From NCBI RefSeq assembly GCF_021462505.1, contig NZ_JAKEDV010000007.1, positions 62,001 through 126,000 on the forward strand: a stretch of 64,000 nt of DNA. The letters run 5' to 3'. The notes under the pieces are model-generated. The model saw nothing but the letters and a program-made list of their open reading frames with translations. It was not told the DNA's origin and ran no database searches. A program made the position numbers and the translations under genes. Of this stretch, positions 42,836-57,582 are shown piece after piece (positions within the stretch are counted from its first letter, which is position 1; every line of letters begins with the position of its first letter). The DNA comes from Thermus brockianus (GTDB lineage: Bacteria > Deinococcota > Deinococci > Deinococcales > Thermaceae).

Positions 42836-43807
42836 TCACCGAGCCACGCCCTGGGCGACAGGGGGGGTTCCGTAGGTGTAGAAGGTTTCCGGAAGCTGCC
42901 CCCCAAACCAGATGGTGCTCTTTTCCAGGTCGTTTACGTTGGTCACGTCCCAGACCACCGTCTTCCAAGTAGGGTCAAAGATGAGGTAGCCGGTGTCGCC
43001 GAAAAGCTCCACGCGGGTTCCCCCCGGCTCAAAGACGTACATGAAGTAGGCCTGGGTGGTTCCGTGCTTGCCCGGCCCCGCCTCAATCCGCACATCGTAC
43101 TCCACGCACAGATCCGCCAAATCCATCAGGTGCTGGGGATACCCGTACCAGAAGGCGATATGGTGGAAGCGCCCCTTGGAACCCGTGGCGTCGCGCATGA
43201 GGCCGATCTCGTGGACCAGGGGGCTCACGGAGAGCCAAGCCCCAAGCTCTTCACCTTCCCCGCGCACCTTTTGCTCCCGGAGCTTGAAGCCCAGGACCTC
43301 CTCAAAAAAGCGCCGGTTGGGCGTGACCTCGGAGCAGAGGCAGTTCACGTGGTCCAGGCGCCGGACCGGCACGCCCCTGAGGGGCCTTTTGGAGGGGCGG
43401 TTCTTGAGCTTGCTTCGCTTCTCAGGGGGCGCTTCGTAGTACGCCACCTCAAAGAGGAGTTCCATCCGGTGCCCGTCAGGGGTGACGAACTGGTAGGCAG
43501 GACCGTGGCCCAAGTCCCCTTCTATCCACCCCTTGCCCAGGCCGGAGGCCTCGAGGGCCTTGACCCGCCGTTCTAAGGCCTCGGGGGAGGCGGTCCGCCA
43601 GGCGATGTGGCCTAGGCCCGCCTCCTTGGCCTCGGTGATCTTAAGGGTGTGGTGGTACCAGTCCTCGTAGGCCCGAAGGTAGACGGAGCTCCCTTCACAG
43701 GCTGTGACCTCGAGGCCCAGAAGTTCCGTGAAAAACCACAAGGTGCCTTCGGGGTTAGGGGTCAGGATCTCTGCATGGGCCAGTTGCACCACATCAAACC
43801 CTTCCAT
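42836..43807 (-). CDS. type I extradiol ring-cleavage dioxygenase (catechol or protocatechuate 2,3-type)
   Basis: A 323-residue two-module VOC dioxygenase. Metal ligands are H153 (RLDHVNCLC), H215 or H216 (GRFHHIAFW) and E267 (GGTRVELFG), nearly the same numbers as catechol 2,3-dioxygenase XylE. The C-terminus ([14 protein letters not shown]) resembles that of the 56608 protein, so the two are paralogues. Downstream enzymes convert 2-hydroxymuconate semialdehyde, so the substrate is catechol, or protocatechuate cleaved at the 2,3 position with later decarboxylation. The ATG at 43807 overlaps the stop of the CMD-family gene (TGATG). Confidence 0.88.
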
Positions 43808-44214
43808 CAAAGCCTCCCTTCCTCCTCCATGCGGAGGATCTCCTGGATCACCTCAGCCCCGCGGTTGGCAGCGGGCAGCCCCCGGAAAAGGAAGGCAAGC
43901 CCCACCACCGCATTGAGCTCCTCGTAGGTGGCCCCGGCCCGCCGGGCAGCGATGGCGTGGAGCTTGGCGGCATCGGAGAGGTCCATAAGGAGCATGCCAA
44001 AGAGCATGAGCTGGGCCGTCTTCACGTCAAAGCAGGGGGGGTACATGAGGCGGGCCCGGAGTTCTTCTTGCATCCGCAAGGTTTCGGGGTCCAGCCGGGC
44101 CAGGAGGTCAGTCCGGGCCTGGATTCTCGGGGGGACGAAACCGATGAGTTCCCGGTAGCGGTCGCGCAGGCGCTCTAACTCTTCTGTGGACATGCGGAGT
44201 TCCGGCTTGGGCAC
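43807..44214 (-). CDS. carboxymuconolactone decarboxylase-family protein
   Basis: A 135-residue AhpD/CMD-like helical protein. It has the CMD stretch [41 protein letters not shown], but no CxxC redox pair, so it is not a peroxidase-type AhpD. Start is GTG 44214, with GGGAGG 8 nt before. It is translationally coupled to the ring-cleavage dioxygenase and thus probably serves the same pathway. A decarboxylase is needed if protocatechuate is cleaved at 2,3; this protein is one candidate, by inference. Confidence 0.82.
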
Positions 44215-44312
44215 AGGCTCTACCTCCCTTGTGAATCCCTTGCGGGTGTTTCGCCCTCACCTTAGGCCCATGCGCCGCGGGACCGCAAGGGTGGCGTTCA
44301 TTTATGCCGAAC

Positions 44313-44328
44313 CGAACGTTCGTATATT
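44313..44328. promoter_or_regulatory. palindrome and -10 box in the CMD-iclR divergent gap
   Basis: CGAACGTTCG (44313-44322) is a perfect 10-bp palindrome directly followed by TATATT (44323-44328), a good -10 for the regulator gene. A weak -35 (TTTATG, 44301-44306) lies 16 bp upstream of it, so the palindrome falls in the spacer. It is a likely operator for the IclR-type regulator, which is encoded 57 nt further on and may control both directions. Confidence 0.55.
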
Positions 44329-44384
44329 CTGAAACAAGGTATCGGCACCCAAGGCAGGAGGGATTACCCTCGGAGGTGAGGCCC

Positions 44385-45158
44385 ATGCTGGGAACGGTAC
44401 AGAAGGTTGGCGAGGTCCTGGAACTCTTCTCCCAAGACCGCTCGGAGTGGGGGGTAAGCGAGGTGGCCAAAGCGTTGGGTATCCCCAAGTCCAGCGCCCA
44501 CGCGCTCCTCGCCACCATGAGCCAGATCGGTCTACTCAAGCGGACCCGGGAAGGGCGGTACCGCCTAGGGTGGCGCATTCTGGCCCTCTCCCAAGTGCTT
44601 CTCTCCACGAGCTCGTGGCGACAGGAGGCCAGGCGGGCCATGGAGGAGCTGGTGGCCCGCTACGGGGAAACCACCCATCTGGCGGTCCTGGAGTGCGGCC
44701 GGGTGGTCTACGTGGAGAAGCTGGAGGGTACCCGGGCGGTGCGGGTGGTGAACACCGGGGTGGGCGTGGAGCTTCCCGCTCACTGTAGCGGCGTGGGCAA
44801 AGTGCTCCTTGCCTTCCGCCCATGGGAAGAGGTGGAGAAGATCGTCTCCCAACGGGGCATGCCCGCCTTTACCCCCAACACCATCACCACCTTGGACGAG
44901 CTCAAGACCGAGCTCCAGGCGGTGCGGGAACGGGGCTACGCCTACGACATAGAAGAGGTGGTGCCGGAGCTTTGTTGTGTGGCAGCGCCCATCCGGGACC
45001 ACACGGGGGAGGTCATCGCCGCCATGAGCCTGTCTGTACCCTTTTACCGTTTCCAGCAGATGAAGGAGGAGTACCGGAGGGCCATCCTCGAGGCCACCCG
45101 GGCCGTTTCCGAGCGGCTTGGGTACATGGGGGAAACAGCATGGACAAGGTCAAGGTAG
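44385..45158 (+). CDS. IclR-family transcriptional regulator
   Basis: A 257-residue regulator. The N-terminal winged helix is visible as [47 protein letters not shown] (about 8-55), followed by the IclR effector domain with [21 protein letters not shown] and [15 protein letters not shown]. IclR proteins often control aromatic degradation with pathway acids as effectors. The ATG at 44385 (with CGGAGGTGAGG before it) is preferred over an in-frame codon at 44304 that would fall in the promoter. It overlaps the following acetaldehyde dehydrogenase gene by 19 nt. Confidence 0.93.
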
Positions 45159-46060
45159 CCATCCTGGGGTCAGGCAACATCGGCACGGACCTGATGTACA
45201 AGCTTTTGAAAAACCCCGGGCACATGGAGCTGGTGGCCCTGGTGGGGATTGACCCGAACTCGGAGGGCCTGGCCCGGGCCCGGGCCTTGGGGTTGGAGGC
45301 GAGCCACGAGGGAATCCAGTACATTCTGGAGCGGCCCGAGATCAAAATCGTCTTTGACGCCACCAGCGCCAAGGCCCACGTGCGCCACGCCAAGCTTCTC
45401 CGGGAGGCGGGGCGGATCGCCATTGACCTGACCCCGGCGGCCCGGGGCCCCTACGTGGTCCCCCCGGTGAACCTGAAGGCGCACCTGGAGGAGGACAACG
45501 TGAACCTCATCACCTGTGGGGGCCAGGCCACCATCCCCTTGGTCTACGCGGTGCACCGGGTGGTGCCGGTCCTTTATGCGGAGATGGTGTCCACGGTGGC
45601 TTCCCGCTCCGCGGGGCCGGGTACGCGGCAGAACATTGACGAGTTCACCTTCACCACGGCCCGGGGCTTGGAGGCCATCGGGGGAGCGAAGCGGGGGAAG
45701 GCCATCATCATCCTGAACCCGGCGGAGCCGCCCATCATCATGACGAACACGGTGCGGGTCATCCCGGAGACGGAGGCCTTTGAGCGGGAGGCGGTGGTGG
45801 AAAGTGTCCGGGCCATGGAGCGGGAGGTGCAGGCCTACGTGCCGGGGTACCGGCTGAAGGCGGACCCGGTGTTTGAGAGGCTCCCCACGCCTTGGGGGGA
45901 GCGGACGGTGGTGTCCATGCTCTTGGAGGTGGAAGGCGCCGGGGACTACCTGCCCAAGTACGCGGGGAACCTGGACATCATGACCGCCTCGGCCCGGCGG
46001 GTGGGGGAGGTCTTTGCCCAGCACCTTTTGGGGAAGCCGGTGGAGGAGGTGACGGCATGA
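45140..46060 (+). CDS. acetaldehyde dehydrogenase (acylating), meta-pathway type
   Basis: A 306-residue DmpF/TodI/MhpF-type enzyme that converts acetaldehyde, CoA and NAD to acetyl-CoA. The front Rossmann motif is [12 protein letters not shown]; the thioester-forming cysteine is C126 in [12 protein letters not shown]. Such enzymes channel acetaldehyde from the aldolase encoded next (4-nt overlap). Homologous gene pairs in T. thermophilus HB8 lie on its megaplasmid, as I recall. The ATG 45140 start lies in the end of the regulator gene. Confidence 0.95.
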
Positions 46061-47100
46061 GCTGGGACCTTTCCTTGGCCAAGCCTCCCGTGGTGGTGGA
46101 CACCACCCTTCGGGACGGCTCCCACGCCCACCGGCACCAGTACACGGTGGCAGAGGCCCGGGCCATCGCCCGGGCCTTGGACGAGGCGGGGGTGTTTGGG
46201 ATAGAGGTCTCCCACGGGGACGGGCTTGGGGGGAGCTCTATCCAGTACGGCTTTTCCCGCACGGACGAGATGGAGCTCATCCGGGCGGTACGGGAAGAGG
46301 TGAAGCGGGCCAAGGTGGCGGCGCTCCTCCTTCCCGGTATCGGCACCCGGAAGGAGCTCAAGGAAGCGGTGGAGGCGGGCGTGGAGATGGTGCGCATCGC
46401 CACCCAGTGCACGGAGGCGGACATCTCCGAGCAGCACTTCGGGATGGCCAAGGAGATGGGCCTCCTGGCGGTGGGCTTCCTCATGATGAGCCACATGCGC
46501 CCGCCGGAGTTCTTGGCGGAGCAGGCCCTCCTCATGGAGTCCTACGGGGCGGACGTGGTGTACATCGTGGACTCCGCCGGGGCCATGCTGCCCCAGGACG
46601 CCTACGCCCGGGTCAAGGCCTTGAAGGAGGCCCTGAAGAGGGCCCAGGTGGGCTTCCACGCCCACAACAACCTGGGCTTGGCCATCGGGAACACCCTGGC
46701 GGCCTTGGCGGCGGGGGCGGACTGGGTGGACGGCACCTTGAGGGGGTACGGGGCGGGGGCGGGGAACGCCGCCACGGAAGTCCTGGCGGCGGTGTTGGAC
46801 AAGGCGGGGCTCAACCCGGGGCTGGACGTGTTCAAGCTTTTGGATGCGGCGGAGTACGTGATGGGTCCCATCCTGCACTTCCAGCCCTACCCAGACCGGG
46901 ACTCCATCGCCATCGGGTACGCTGGGGTCTACTCCACCTTCCTCTTGCACGCCAAACGCATTGGAAAGGAGTTTGGGGTGGACCCTATGGCCATCCTCTT
47001 GGAGCTGGGACGCCGCCAGGCGGTGGCGGGGCAGGAGGACTGGATCCTGCGGGTGGCCCTGGAGCTCAAGGAGAAGGAGGCCGGGGCCTTGGCGGACTAG
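46057..47100 (+). CDS. 4-hydroxy-2-oxovalerate aldolase
   Basis: A 347-residue DmpG/MhpE-type class II aldolase that splits 4-hydroxy-2-oxopentanoate into pyruvate and acetaldehyde. The metal site is D20 (TLRDGSHAH), H201 and H203 (GFHAHNNLG); the catalytic His follows D20 within the motif. It forms a channelling complex with the acylating dehydrogenase. After its stop at 47098-47100 the same frame remains open for 40 more codons (to 47222); see the other entry and findings. Confidence 0.95.
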
Positions 47101-47222
47101 GATGGACCATGGAGCGGCTTGGTTTCGTGGGTACAGGAGAGGTTTGGGCGGGAAGTGGTGTTCCGGCCTAGCTTCAGGGGAGCGGAGGACCTTTTCCGGA
47201 GGAACGAAGATGGTGGTCCTTA
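47101..47222 (+). other. intercistronic segment with open frame, possible gene remnant
   Basis: This stretch separates the aldolase stop from the first tautomerase start and is long for an operon in which most genes touch. In the frame of the aldolase it stays open after the stop codon and reads as a protein-like chain (LVSWVQERFGREVVFRPSF, then RGAEDLFRRNEDGGP) ending at TAA 47220-47222. No ATG or good ribosome binding site starts it. I do not recognise it. Confidence 0.35.
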
Positions 47223-47404
47223 AGGTGACCCTGCTGGAGGGCCGCCCGCTGGAGAAAAAGCGGGAGCTGGTGAGGCGGCTAACGGAGATGGCGGCGCGCC
47301 TTTTAGAAGAACCCCAAGAGGAAATCCGCGTGATCCTCTACGAGGTGAGGCGCGACCAGTGGGCAGCAGGGGGCGTGCTCTTTTCAGACAAGGAGGGAGC
47401 ATGA
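47210..47404 (+). CDS. 4-oxalocrotonate tautomerase-family subunit lacking Pro1
   Basis: A 64-residue tautomerase-superfamily chain. Starting after Met it reads V1-V-L-K-V-T-L-L-E-G-R11, with R39 (EEIRVILYE) and an aromatic at position 50 (W50, DQWAAGGVLFSD). Only the catalytic base Pro1 is missing, replaced by Val. The ATG is backed by a strong CGGAGGAA ribosome binding site, and no alternative start gives Pro. Enzymes of this family convert 2-hydroxymuconate to 2-oxohex-3-enedioate. I infer it is the Arg-bearing partner of the Pro1-bearing chain at 50410. It overlaps the next gene by 4 nt. Confidence 0.85.
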   Translation: MVVLKVTLLEGRPLEKKRELVRRLTEMAARLLEEPQEEIRVILYEVRRDQWAAGGVLFSDKEGA

Positions 47405-48096
47405 CGCTCTTGGAGGCGGTGCGGCAGGCCCGCCAAGCAGGGAAGACCCTCCCAGGGGGAAAGGACTGGGGCGTGGACCTTTCGGAAGCCTACCGCATCC
47501 AAGAGGCCCTTTTTCCCGGGCCCCTAAAGGGGTACAAGCTCGGGCTGGTTTCCGAAGCCAAGCAGCGGCAGATGGGCCTTTCCGAGCCCACCTTTGGCCG
47601 GGTTCACCCGGGGATGCTTTTGCAGAAGCCGGCGCTTAGCCGGTTCATCCAGCCTCGGGTGGAGCCTGAGGTAGCGGTGGTGCTAAGGGAGGACGTGCCT
47701 CCTGGGGCTTCCGTGAGCCGGGCCTACGCCGCCATTGGGGGGTTTTTCCTGGCGGTGGACCTTTTGGATTCCGTGTGGGAAGGCTACCGCTTCACCGCCC
47801 AAGAGGTGGTGGCGGACAACACCTCAGGGGGCGGTTTTCTTCTCTCCATCCGGCGGTACAGCCGGCTCCCCAAAGGGGTTCTGCGCCTCTACCTGAACGG
47901 GGAGAAGGTGGCCGAGGGACCCGTGGAGGCTTTAGGGGACCCGGGGGCACGGCTTTCCTGGCTGGCGGAGCGGGTTGGGGGGCTTAGGGCGGGCCAGGTG
48001 GTCTTCCTGGGGTCCCCGGCTCCGGCGGTACCCTTGGCGCAAGGCGTGTTGGAGCTTTGGGGTGAGGGGGATGTGCTCCTTGCCCGGGTGGAGTGA
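47401..48096 (+). CDS. 4-oxalocrotonate decarboxylase (DmpH type)
   Basis: A 231-residue FAH-fold enzyme that decarboxylates 2-oxohex-3-enedioate to 2-hydroxypenta-2,4-dienoate. The KGYKLGLVSEAKQRQMGLSEPTFGRVHPGM segment is of the decarboxylase type, and metal ligands are in VEPEVAVVLRED. Then FFLAVDLLDSVWEGY and VVADNTSGGGFLLS complete the pattern. Family members DmpH and DmpE are homologous and form a complex; the other copy is at 49621. Assignment between the two rests on these motifs. It starts inside the end of the preceding tautomerase gene. Confidence 0.88.
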   Translation: MTLLEAVRQARQAGKTLPGGKDWGVDLSEAYRIQEALFPGPLKGYKLGLVSEAKQRQMGLSEPTFGRVHPGMLLQKPALSRFIQPRVEPEVAVVLREDVPPGASVSRAYAAIGGFFLAVDLLDSVWEGYRFTAQEVVADNTSGGGFLLSIRRYSRLPKGVLRLYLNGEKVAEGPVEALGDPGARLSWLAERVGGLRAGQVVFLGSPAPAVPLAQGVLELWGEGDVLLARVE

Positions 48097-48108
48097 GGAG
48101 GTCGGACC

Positions 48109-49617
48109 ATGGTGGAACCGAAAGTCTACAAGGAAACGGTGGACCGGCTTAAGGCGCTGGGCTTTCCCTTTGAGCTTCCCCTCGAGGTCACCCACTACAT
48201 TGGCGGGGAGTTCGTGCGGGGGGAGAACTTCTTCCCCGTGGTTTACCCGGCCACGGGGGAGGTGATCGGCACCGCCCCCGAGGGGCGGGAGAAAGAGGTG
48301 GAGATGGCGGTAGGGGCGGCCCAGGAGGCCTTCTTGAAGTGGGGCAAGATGCCGCCAAGCCAAAGGAGGCCCTATCTCCGCCGCTTCGCCGAGAAGATCC
48401 GGGAGTACAAGCCCGTCTTTGAGGTGCTGGAAACCCTGGACGTGGGGCGGCCCATCCACGAGAACCGCCTCGGGTACGTGGAGCGCATGGCCAACAACAT
48501 TGAGTTCTTCGCCGACTTCGCCGTTACCCACGGCTCCGAGGCCTATCCCATGGAAAACGGCTACATCAACTACGTCCTGCGCTTCCCCGTGGGGGTGGCG
48601 GCCCTCATCACCCCTTGGAACATGCCCAGCATGCTCGCCACCTGGAAGATCGGGCCCACCCTGGCCTTCGGCAACACCGCCGTGCTCAAGCCGGCGGAGT
48701 TCACCCCCTTGGGGGCCTGGCTCCTCGCCCGCTGCGCCCACGAGGCGGGGCTTCCCCCGGGGGTCTTCAACGTGGTCCACGGTTTCGGGCCCAACTCCGC
48801 TGGGGAGCTCCTCACCAAACACCCCCTCGTGCGCCTCATCTCCTTCACGGGGGAGACCACCACGGGCAAAATCATCATGAAAAACGCCGCCGACACCCTC
48901 AAGCGCCTTTCCATGGAGCTCGGAGGAAAGGCGCCCAACCTTATTTTTGAAAGCGCCGATCTGGACCGGGCGGTGGAGGTGACCCTGCGGGCGAGCTTCT
49001 TCAACCAGGGAGAGGTGTGCCTGGCGGGCTCCCGCCTCCTGGTGCAACGCTCCATCTACGAGGCCTTCTTGGACAAGCTGGTGGCGGCGGCCAAGGCCCT
49101 GAAGGTGGGGGACCCCCTGGATCCCGAAACCCGCATGGGGGCCCTCATCGCCGAGGAGCATCTAAAGAAGGTCATGTCCTACGTGGAGATCGCCCGGGAA
49201 ACCGCCACCATCCTCACGGGCGGGAAGAAGCCTGAGCTTCCCCACCCCTTTGACAAGGGCTACTTCCTGGAGCCCACGGTGGTGGTGGACGTGAAGCCCT
49301 CGGACAAGGTCTGCCAGGAGGAGATCTTCGGCCCCATGGTGGTGGTGATGCCCTTTGATACCGAGGAGGAGGCCATTGAGCTTGCCAACAACACCCCTTA
49401 CGGCCTGAACGCCATCGTGCAGACCCGGGACGTGGGCCAGGCGGTGCGGGTTTCCGAGGCCCTCGAGGTGGGCACGGTCTGGGTGAACGACTGGTTCGTG
49501 CGGGACCTGCGGGTGCCCTTCGGCGGGGCCAAGCAGTCGGGCATCGGCCGTGAGGGGGGCCACTACGGCTACGAGTTCTACTACGAAACCAAAAACGTCT
49601 GCATCGCCAACCGGTGA
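48109..49617 (+). CDS. 2-hydroxymuconate semialdehyde dehydrogenase (DmpC/XylG/PraB type)
   Basis: A 502-residue NAD-dependent aldehyde dehydrogenase with E270 (MELGGKAPN) and the nucleophile C304 (NQGEVCLAGSR), plus ITPWNMPSMLATWKIGPTLAFGN for cofactor binding. It oxidises 2-hydroxymuconate 6-semialdehyde to 2-hydroxymuconate, sending ring-cleavage product down the oxalocrotonate branch. No 2-hydroxymuconate semialdehyde hydrolase (DmpD) is seen, so the oxidative branch is the one used here. It is preceded by a GGAGG ribosome binding site in a 12-nt gap. Confidence 0.92.
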   Translation: MVEPKVYKETVDRLKALGFPFELPLEVTHYIGGEFVRGENFFPVVYPATGEVIGTAPEGREKEVEMAVGAAQEAFLKWGKMPPSQRRPYLRRFAEKIREYKPVFEVLETLDVGRPIHENRLGYVERMANNIEFFADFAVTHGSEAYPMENGYINYVLRFPVGVAALITPWNMPSMLATWKIGPTLAFGNTAVLKPAEFTPLGAWLLARCAHEAGLPPGVFNVVHGFGPNSAGELLTKHPLVRLISFTGETTTGKIIMKNAADTLKRLSMELGGKAPNLIFESADLDRAVEVTLRASFFNQGEVCLAGSRLLVQRSIYEAFLDKLVAAAKALKVGDPLDPETRMGALIAEEHLKKVMSYVEIARETATILTGGKKPELPHPFDKGYFLEPTVVVDVKPSDKVCQEEIFGPMVVVMPFDTEEEAIELANNTPYGLNAIVQTRDVGQAVRVSEALEVGTVWVNDWFVRDLRVPFGGAKQSGIGREGGHYGYEFYYETKNVCIANR

Positions 49618-49620
49618 GCC

Positions 49621-50397
49621 ATGAACCCCGAAACCTTCGCACAGGAGTTAGAAGGGGCCTGGGTGGAAAGGAGGCCCATAGAACCCCTTTCCGAGCGGGG
49701 CCTTAAGGGGATTGAGGCCGCCTACCGGGTCCAGGAGGCCTGGAACCGCCTGCGCCTAGCCAAGGGGGACAAGGTGGTGGGCCGCAAGATCGGCCTGACC
49801 TCCAAGGCAGTACAGGAGCAACTGGGCGTGGACCAGCCGGACTATGGCAACCTCTGGGCAAGCCGCTTCCTGGGGATGGGGGAGCGGGCCGAGGTGGCGG
49901 CCTCCCTTTTCCTCCAGCCCCGGGTGGAAGGGGAGCTGGCCTTCCTCCTGGGAAAGCGCCTAGAGGGCCCCCACGTGACCCCTCAGGAGGTGCTCGCCGC
50001 CACGGAGGCGGTGGCCTTTGCCCTGGAGATCGTGGACTCCCGCATCCGGGACTGGCGCATCCGCATAGAGGACACCATCGCCGACAACGCCTCCTTCGGG
50101 GCCTTCTTTGTGGGGCCGTGGGAGCGGGCTTTGCTGGAGGAGGACCTTTCCACCTTAGGCCTCGTGCTCTACCGGAACGGGGAGGCGGTGGCCCAGGGGG
50201 CGGGAGCAGCCTGCCTAGGGCACCCGGCCAGGGCGGTGGCCTGGCTCGCCAACGCCCTGGCCGCCTTTGGGGTGGCCCTGGAGCCGGGGGAGATCGTCAT
50301 GTCCGGGGCCTGGGCCCCGGTGCAGGTGGCCCGCCCGGGGGACCTCTTTACCCTGGTGGGAACGGGGGGGAGGGCCCTTACCTTGCGTTTCGCCTAG
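49621..50397 (+). CDS. 2-oxopent-4-enoate hydratase (DmpE/MhpD type)
   Basis: A 258-residue FAH-fold hydratase. GRKIGLTSKAVQEQLGVDQPDYGNLW is the hydratase signature, followed by the metal-binding VEGELAFLLGKRL and EIVDSRIRDWRIRIEDTIADNASFGAFF. It hydrates 2-hydroxypenta-2,4-dienoate to 4-hydroxy-2-oxopentanoate, the substrate of the aldolase at 46057. It begins 3 nt after the dehydrogenase stop and precedes the Pro1 tautomerase by 12 nt. Confidence 0.94.
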   Translation: MNPETFAQELEGAWVERRPIEPLSERGLKGIEAAYRVQEAWNRLRLAKGDKVVGRKIGLTSKAVQEQLGVDQPDYGNLWASRFLGMGERAEVAASLFLQPRVEGELAFLLGKRLEGPHVTPQEVLAATEAVAFALEIVDSRIRDWRIRIEDTIADNASFGAFFVGPWERALLEEDLSTLGLVLYRNGEAVAQGAGAACLGHPARAVAWLANALAAFGVALEPGEIVMSGAWAPVQVARPGDLFTLVGTGGRALTLRFA

Positions 50398-50409
50398 CGG
50401 AGGTGGACC

Positions 50410-50577
50410 ATGCCCCTATTGGAGGTTTTGGTGGCGAGAAAGGAACCCTTGAACGAAGAGCGTAAGGAAGCCATCAAGCAAGAGGCAGAGGAGATCTTCC
50501 GGGAAGTCTTGGGTACGCCCCCCGGGCGGCTTAGGGTGTTCATCCTGGAAGAGCGCAAGGATCAGCCCCCCAAGTAG
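50410..50577 (+). CDS. 4-oxalocrotonate tautomerase-family subunit with Pro1
   Basis: A 55-residue tautomerase-superfamily chain, too short for many gene finders. It begins M-P-L-L-E-V-L-V, so the catalytic Pro1 is available after Met removal. Position 11, normally Arg, is Glu, and the C-terminus stops before the aromatic found near position 50; RLRVFILEE matches the region of the second Arg. A GGAGGT ribosome binding site precedes it. It is the last gene of the operon and overlaps the end of the convergent livF-like gene by 16 nt. It appears complementary to the chain at 47210. Confidence 0.85.
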   Translation: MPLLEVLVARKEPLNEERKEAIKQEAEEIFREVLGTPPGRLRVFILEERKDQPPK

Positions 50578-56607: not shown

Positions 56608-57582
56608 ATGGAAGGAAGCGAATACGCCCGTTGGCCGTACGGCGACCTAGCCCATCTGGCCCACGTGGAGCTCATCACCCCCAAGCCGGAGGCGAGCCTT
56701 TGGTTCTTCACCGAGGTGATGGGGATGGCGGTGAGCGGCCAGGAGGGGGATTCCGTCTACCTCCGGGGTTGGGACGACTACGAGTACCACACGCTAAAGC
56801 TTACAGCGGGCCCGAAGCCAGCTTTGGGTCACTTTGCCTTCCGCGTAAAAACCCCGGAAGCGCTCCTGCGGCGGGTGGAGGCGCTTGAGGCCTCCGGGCT
56901 TGGGGAAGGATGGACGGATGGGGACCTGGGCCACGGCCCCGCCTACCGGTTCCGCACCCCGGATGGCCACCTGATGGAGCTTTACTACGAAACCCGTTGG
57001 TACACCCCCACCGAGGCCACCCGGCCTGCCCTGAAGAACCAAGCCTCCCGTTTCCCGGGAAAGGGCGCCAACCTTAGGCGGCTAGACCACATCAATATCC
57101 TGGCCTCCGATGTGGCGGCGGTGCGGGCGTTTATGGAGCGCTACCTCGGGATGAGGGTCACCGAGCAAATCATCTTTAGCGACGGGACCGAACAGGGGGC
57201 TTGGCTCACCTGCAACAACAAGACCTACGACGTGGCCGTGACCAAGGACCACCTCGGGGCCAAAGGCAGGCTTCACCACTTCACCTACGCCGTGGATAGC
57301 CGGGAGGAGGTCCTGCGGGCGGCGGACATTTGCCTGGAGCACGGGGTCTTCATTGAAACGGGGCCCCACAAGCACGCTATCCAGCAGACCTTCTTCCTCT
57401 ACGTGTACGAGCCGGGTGGGTGTCGGTTTGAAATCGCCTGCCCGGGAGCGCGCCTCCTTCTTGCCCCTGACTGGAAGCCCATTGTCTGGAACGAGGAGGA
57501 GCGAAAGAAGGGCCAGGCCTGGGGCTTGAAGACGGTGGAAACCTTCCACACCTACGGGGTTCCCCCGGTAGAGGAGGCCTGA
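56608..57582 (+). CDS. type I extradiol ring-cleavage dioxygenase (VOC)
   Basis: A 324-residue two-module dioxygenase with ligands H161 (RLDHINILA), H223 or H224 (GRLHHFTYAV) and E275 (GGCRFEIACPG). It is a paralogue of the enzyme at 42836: both share the front (HVELITP / HAEILTP, SVYLR) and the C-terminal ETFxTYGxPPV. The enzymes that follow act on products of 4,5-cleavage of protocatechuate or gallate, so this may be a type I enzyme doing the job of LigAB or GalA, which belong to another (type II) family. Its stop overlaps the GntR start (TGATG). Confidence 0.88.
   Translation: MEGSEYARWPYGDLAHLAHVELITPKPEASLWFFTEVMGMAVSGQEGDSVYLRGWDDYEYHTLKLTAGPKPALGHFAFRVKTPEALLRRVEALEASGLGEGWTDGDLGHGPAYRFRTPDGHLMELYYETRWYTPTEATRPALKNQASRFPGKGANLRRLDHINILASDVAAVRAFMERYLGMRVTEQIIFSDGTEQGAWLTCNNKTYDVAVTKDHLGAKGRLHHFTYAVDSREEVLRAADICLEHGVFIETGPHKHAIQQTFFLYVYEPGGCRFEIACPGARLLLAPDWKPIVWNEEERKKGQAWGLKTVETFHTYGVPPVEEA

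Follow-up and report, generated by a model that had tools for sequence, protein, structure and literature searches.

A Pro-less and a Pro1 tautomerase chain from one Thermus brockianus meta-cleavage operon as probable subunits of a heterohexameric 4-oxalocrotonate tautomerase

Introduction

4-Oxalocrotonate tautomerase (4-OT) uses Pro1 as its base; the C6 carboxylate is bound by Arg11, and the C1 carboxylate and 2-hydroxyl by Arg39 (PMC4786785). Phe50 is an additional active-site residue (PMC11641302). Pro1, Arg11′ and Arg39″ are contributed by different subunits (PMC5818174). Because the residues of one site in the homohexameric enzyme already come from different subunits, their division over two genes would be mechanically simple. 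In the homohexamer of P. putida mt-2 (PDB ID: 1bjp), all of these residues are on one chain. A pair of chains from Chloroflexus aurantiacus J-10-fl was deposited as a heterohexamer 4-OT (PDB ID: 3mb2). Burks and co-workers reportedly found several thermophile genomes in which a tautomerase lacking Pro1 is encoded near an unannotated protein that has it, and the two Chloroflexus proteins are said to form a functional heterohexamer. Their 3mb2 paper (Burks et al. 2010, Biochemistry 49:5016, doi 10.1021/bi100502z) is cited in PMC5818174. From Thermus thermophilus HB8, the protein TTHB242, encoded on pTT27, has been solved as one sequence in six chains (PDB ID: 3abf). Base and arginines on separate chains are also found in the alpha-beta heterohexamer of trans-3-chloroacrylic acid dehalogenase (CaaD), where Pro begins both chains and the alpha chain requires Arg8, Arg11 and Glu52.

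Here we compare these systems with two small chains encoded in a window of 64,000 nt from T. brockianus (NZ_JAKEDV010000007.1), namely alpha (the 47210 chain) and beta (the 50410 chain). An initial annotation of the window had proposed that the two carry complementary halves of one active site and form an obligate hetero-oligomeric 4-OT, with CaaD as the precedent.

Results

Both genes were found inside a single catechol meta-cleavage operon on the forward strand, and the gene content bore out the initial annotation in this respect. The conserved block opens with a gene for an IclR-family regulator (44304..45158), which had NCBIfam IclR-type matches below the equivalog cut-offs and a conserved position. 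It is followed by dmpF, encoding an acetylating acetaldehyde dehydrogenase (45137..46060; TIGR03215, 457 bits, cut-off 282), dmpG, encoding a 4-hydroxy-2-oxovalerate aldolase (46057..47100; TIGR03217, 530 bits, cut-off 286), and the alpha gene (47210..47404). The next gene (47401..48096) overlaps alpha by 4 nt and encodes a fumarylacetoacetate-hydrolase-family protein that gave no NCBIfam match; it is a paralogue of the DmpE in the operon, and its position and the HB8 annotation suggest that it is probably the 4-oxalocrotonate decarboxylase (DmpH role). An aldehyde dehydrogenase gene (48109..49617), with HpaE and OH_muco_semi_DH as best families, both below the equivalog cut-off, probably encodes the 2-hydroxymuconate semialdehyde dehydrogenase that would supply the 4-OT substrate. 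The 2-oxopent-4-enoate hydratase-like DmpE (49621..50397; TIGR03220 as best family, 269 bits, below cut-off) and beta (50410..50577) complete the block. The two reading frames stood as initially annotated, with their starts and strong ribosome binding sites, as a GGAGG Shine-Dalgarno sequence lies 7 nt upstream of the alpha ATG (47198..47202) and 6 nt upstream of the beta ATG (50399..50403).

The order IclR-dmpF-dmpG-alpha-dmpH-ALDH-dmpE-beta was common to nearly all Thermus loci and was also present on T. oshimai and T. thermophilus plasmids and in C. aurantiacus. Over the stretches compared, the alpha and beta sequences of the C. aurantiacus locus were identical to those of 3mb2. The gene order common to Thermus and C. 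aurantiacus thus argues for orthology, beyond mere similarity, between the window pair and the solved 3mb2 pair.

The gap between dmpG and alpha measures 109 bp in the window (47101-47209), compared with 1.5 kb in Chloroflexus and about 10 bp in several other Thermus loci. Extra genes or gaps separate dmpG and alpha in T. thermophilus HB8 and several other Thermus, and in HB8 the interval contains genes for an oxidoreductase, a flavin reductase, a hypothetical protein and a DMT transporter. The alpha reading frame is open across the whole gap in the window, but a longer alpha starting at the in-frame ATG at 47102 was rejected, since the homologues share the start at the Val codon and the Shine-Dalgarno sequence fits 47210. 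At the other end of the block, beta and a convergent gene for an ABC-transporter ATPase share 16 nt at their 3′ ends (50562-50577). The operon region is flanked by genes for two distinct catechol 2,3-dioxygenases, at 42836-43810 on the reverse strand and 56608-57582 on the forward strand, both above the NCBIfam cut-off.

The alpha gene encodes 64 aa (MVVLKVTLLEGR...EEIRVILYEVRRDQWAAGG...), and the product is a PF01361 tautomerase at 54 bits. It was 92% identical over 63 aa to TTHB242 (3abf), which belongs to the same operon in HB8, and matched 3mb2_A with an E-value of 2.7e-10 in a PDB sequence search. Counted without Met, alpha contains Val1, Arg11, Arg39 and Trp50, in agreement with the initial annotation, which had recorded position 50 as an aromatic. 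R11, R39 and W50 were invariant in a 20-sequence alignment. Position 1 was Val in Thermus and Leu, or once Met, elsewhere; alpha homologues with Pro1 in related operons were looked for, and none was found among the relatives read. Selection on alpha within Thermus was purifying, with dN/dS of 0.03-0.45 where dS could be estimated. Alpha was the sole PF01361 protein in the genome of the window, so no ordinary 4-OT is available as a substitute for the pair. No NCBIfam cut-off was reached by either alpha or beta.

The beta gene encodes 55 aa (MPLLEVLVARKEPLNEERKEAIKQEAEEIFREVLGTPPGRLRVFILEERKDQPPK), with 54 residues after Met, starting with the Pro1 that the initial annotation had pointed out and that was invariant among all beta relatives read. 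Beta belongs to the PF21420 'Tautomerase-like' family (38.8 bits, cut-off 27), and its top PDB match was 3mb2_B, with E-values of 2.1e-7 for the single sequence and 4.3e-21 for a profile. The AF2 model of beta was a strand-helix-strand fold with a pLDDT of 85, and in a Foldseek search with this model the three 3mb2 beta chains took ranks 1-3, with CaaD chains among the matches. Beta could be thought of as a decaying or spurious reading frame and alpha as a degenerate 4-OT, given that beta is short, that RefSeq gives it no functional annotation (in HB8 the counterpart following the hydratase gene is a 'hypothetical protein') and that one Thermus genome retains beta next to a dmpE remnant but lacks alpha. 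This is almost certainly wrong, however, because purifying selection acts on both chains (dN/dS of 0.11-0.26 for beta within Thermus where dS could be estimated), the Shine-Dalgarno sequence and the position are conserved, and conservation reaches Chloroflexota, with a Pfam family for beta.

To obtain the correspondence between the chains, the two families were aligned profile to profile. The first loop of beta holds two extra residues compared to alpha, and alpha Arg11 aligned to beta Leu13, so that beta has no Arg11 equivalent; the 'Glu at 11' of the initial annotation was a product of ungapped counting. Its statement that beta stops before position 50 had the same origin, as the residue at aligned position 50 is Pro and the chain ends two residues later, without a C-terminal hairpin. 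Alpha Arg39 aligned to beta Arg41 ('GRLRV'), which had been overlooked. On this alignment, the proposed complementarity of the halves holds for Pro1, R11 and the aromatic residue, but not cleanly for R39. Compared to homohexameric 4-OT, with Pro1, R11 and R39 on one chain, alpha lacks Pro1 and beta lacks R11. Alpha instead resembles a 3mb2-type alpha chain in having the tautomerase fold, no Pro1, and R11, R39 and an aromatic at 50, and beta resembles its partner in Pro1, membership of PF21420 and the 3mb2 beta chain as its closest match in both sequence and fold.

The alpha-beta plan and the CaaD chains among the Foldseek matches of the beta model also raise the question of whether the heterohexamer could be a dehalogenase of the CaaD kind instead of a 4-OT. 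We consider this extremely unlikely, since alpha, although it has Arg11, carries Leu8 and Ala52 where CaaD alpha needs Arg8 and Glu52, the genes lie in a catechol meta-cleavage operon, and the 3mb2 beta chains were better Foldseek matches. CaaD shares the hetero-oligomeric plan but catalyzes another reaction, and the Chloroflexus heterohexamer 4-OT is the closer precedent.

In 27 Thermus genomes, alpha was found in 11, beta in 11 and both in 10 (Fisher p 1.4e-5), with the genomes in this and the following count not being phylogenetically independent. The single alpha-only genome was 65% complete, and its contig stopped inside dmpE. The Val1/Pro1 pair was conserved together in Thermus, as had been asked in the initial annotation, with Val1 in alpha, Pro1 in beta and both genes in 10 of the 11 alpha-bearing genomes. 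Among 400 Chloroflexota genomes, beta scored above the cut-off in 22 and an alpha-type chain, defined by an alpha-profile score of at least 100 bits, was present in 22; both occurred in 21 and each alone in one (Fisher p 1e-32, which overstates independence as the genomes are related). The alpha-profile scores in Chloroflexota split cleanly: 22 genomes reached at least 100 bits, and Pro1 was present in none of them, and the others scored 67 bits or less; eight of these lower-scoring chains were read, and seven started with Pro and one with Ala. Pro1 was missing in every alpha read (Thermus, Thermomicrobia, Thermogemmatispora and Chloroflexus) and present in every beta read. This strict split across at least two phyla, combined with purifying selection on both genes, argues that the Pro-less/Pro1 pattern did not arise by chance.

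Where alpha lacked beta in the fetched flank, a whole-genome search found beta elsewhere in most such genomes. The Thermomicrobia and one Thermogemmatispora copy, in which beta is not near alpha, were considered as counter-examples and dismissed on these grounds. In a tree, which is weak owing to the short sequences, the beta group was supported at 100/99 and alpha formed one group with low support (42/68). Relatives of the pair were sought in viral contigs and none were found.

Several individual loci departed from the common arrangement. In one Thermus genome (G010), an intact beta adjoins a short dmpE remnant (L035:10561-10819) and no alpha was found in the genome, as though a deletion had removed the operon as far as beta. 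Genome G024 has a single alpha but two beta genes, which lie on separate contigs (L028 and L029); the second beta is near a contig end beside a partial second dmpE. In Thermogemmatispora tikiterensis (G114; L049 and L113), the whole pair is duplicated, giving two alpha and two beta genes. A Thermus-like alpha (82%) with beta was also found on a contig assigned in binning to an uncultured Sulfolobales archaeon (L039), which is probably mis-binned or transferred.

The six chains in the alpha-only 3abf crystal, and the fact that a free N-terminal amine can in principle serve as a base (PMC5818174), could be taken to mean that an alpha homohexamer is a working 4-OT, using the amine of Val or some other base, with beta as an accessory or regulatory protein. 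We find this very unlikely, since alpha may have Val, Leu or Met at position 1 whereas Pro1 of beta is invariant, beta co-occurs with alpha almost without exception, and the Chloroflexus pair was deposited as a heterohexamer. The crystal obtained without beta does imply that beta is not needed for the folding of alpha, even if alpha is inactive alone, and that 'obligate' applies at most to activity.

Discussion

Judged from the sequences, the predicted beta fold, conservation, co-occurrence and the operon, alpha and beta are very probably the subunits of a heterohexamer 4-oxalocrotonate (2-hydroxymuconate) tautomerase that is orthologous to the C. aurantiacus enzyme. We infer that this hexamer forms and is active in T. 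brockianus and that the single chains are inactive. The hetero-oligomeric 4-OT with divided roles put forward in the initial annotation is thus supported as by far the best explanation, with 3mb2 orthology, operon order, co-occurrence and the co-inheritance of two genes in one meta-cleavage operon all pointing the same way.

In the proposed mechanism, Pro1 of beta would act as the general base and a proton would be shifted from the 2-hydroxyl to C5. Arg11 from alpha would bind the C6 carboxylate, and alpha would also provide the aromatic residue at position 50, so that a nearly complete site would form between the chains from beta Pro1 together with Arg11 and Trp50 of alpha. Arg39 would most likely come from alpha, but in Thermus it could be from beta. 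In the catechol meta-cleavage pathway that this operon encodes, the enzyme would act after the semialdehyde dehydrogenase and before the decarboxylase.

The fold and residue set are those of the P. putida enzyme, which, unlike the pair, has all of the residues on one chain. Compared to 3mb2, the pair has an orthologous alpha (41% identity, 59 aa) and beta (48%, 44 aa), a Pro-less alpha with R11, R39 and W50, a Pro1 beta, and the same operon order. The differences are that residue 1 of alpha is Val in the window and Leu in Chloroflexus, that beta is without the longer tail of the Chloroflexus chain, and that the R39 position of beta is Arg in the window and Gln in Chloroflexus. With the 48% identity of beta, the shorter tail and the Arg for Gln, active-site details may differ from those in Chloroflexus. 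It is conceivable, but rather doubtful, that the labour is split differently in Thermus, where beta would donate not only Pro1 but also a second Arg, at the R39 position, and the missing C-terminal hairpin would leave only three working sites per hexamer.

The split-site arrangement is real but was already solved in Chloroflexus in 2010, and the Thermus pair is almost certainly a further example of it and not a discovery. For Thermus, it means that the Pro-less 'tautomerase family protein' would be half an enzyme, with the other half annotated as hypothetical and lying below the NCBIfam cut-offs. Proteins such as TTHB242, if assayed alone, would probably be expected to show little activity. 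From Thermus to Chloroflexota, the pair would represent a widespread natural example of an active site divided between two genes and cleanly marked by its Pro-less/Pro1 signature.
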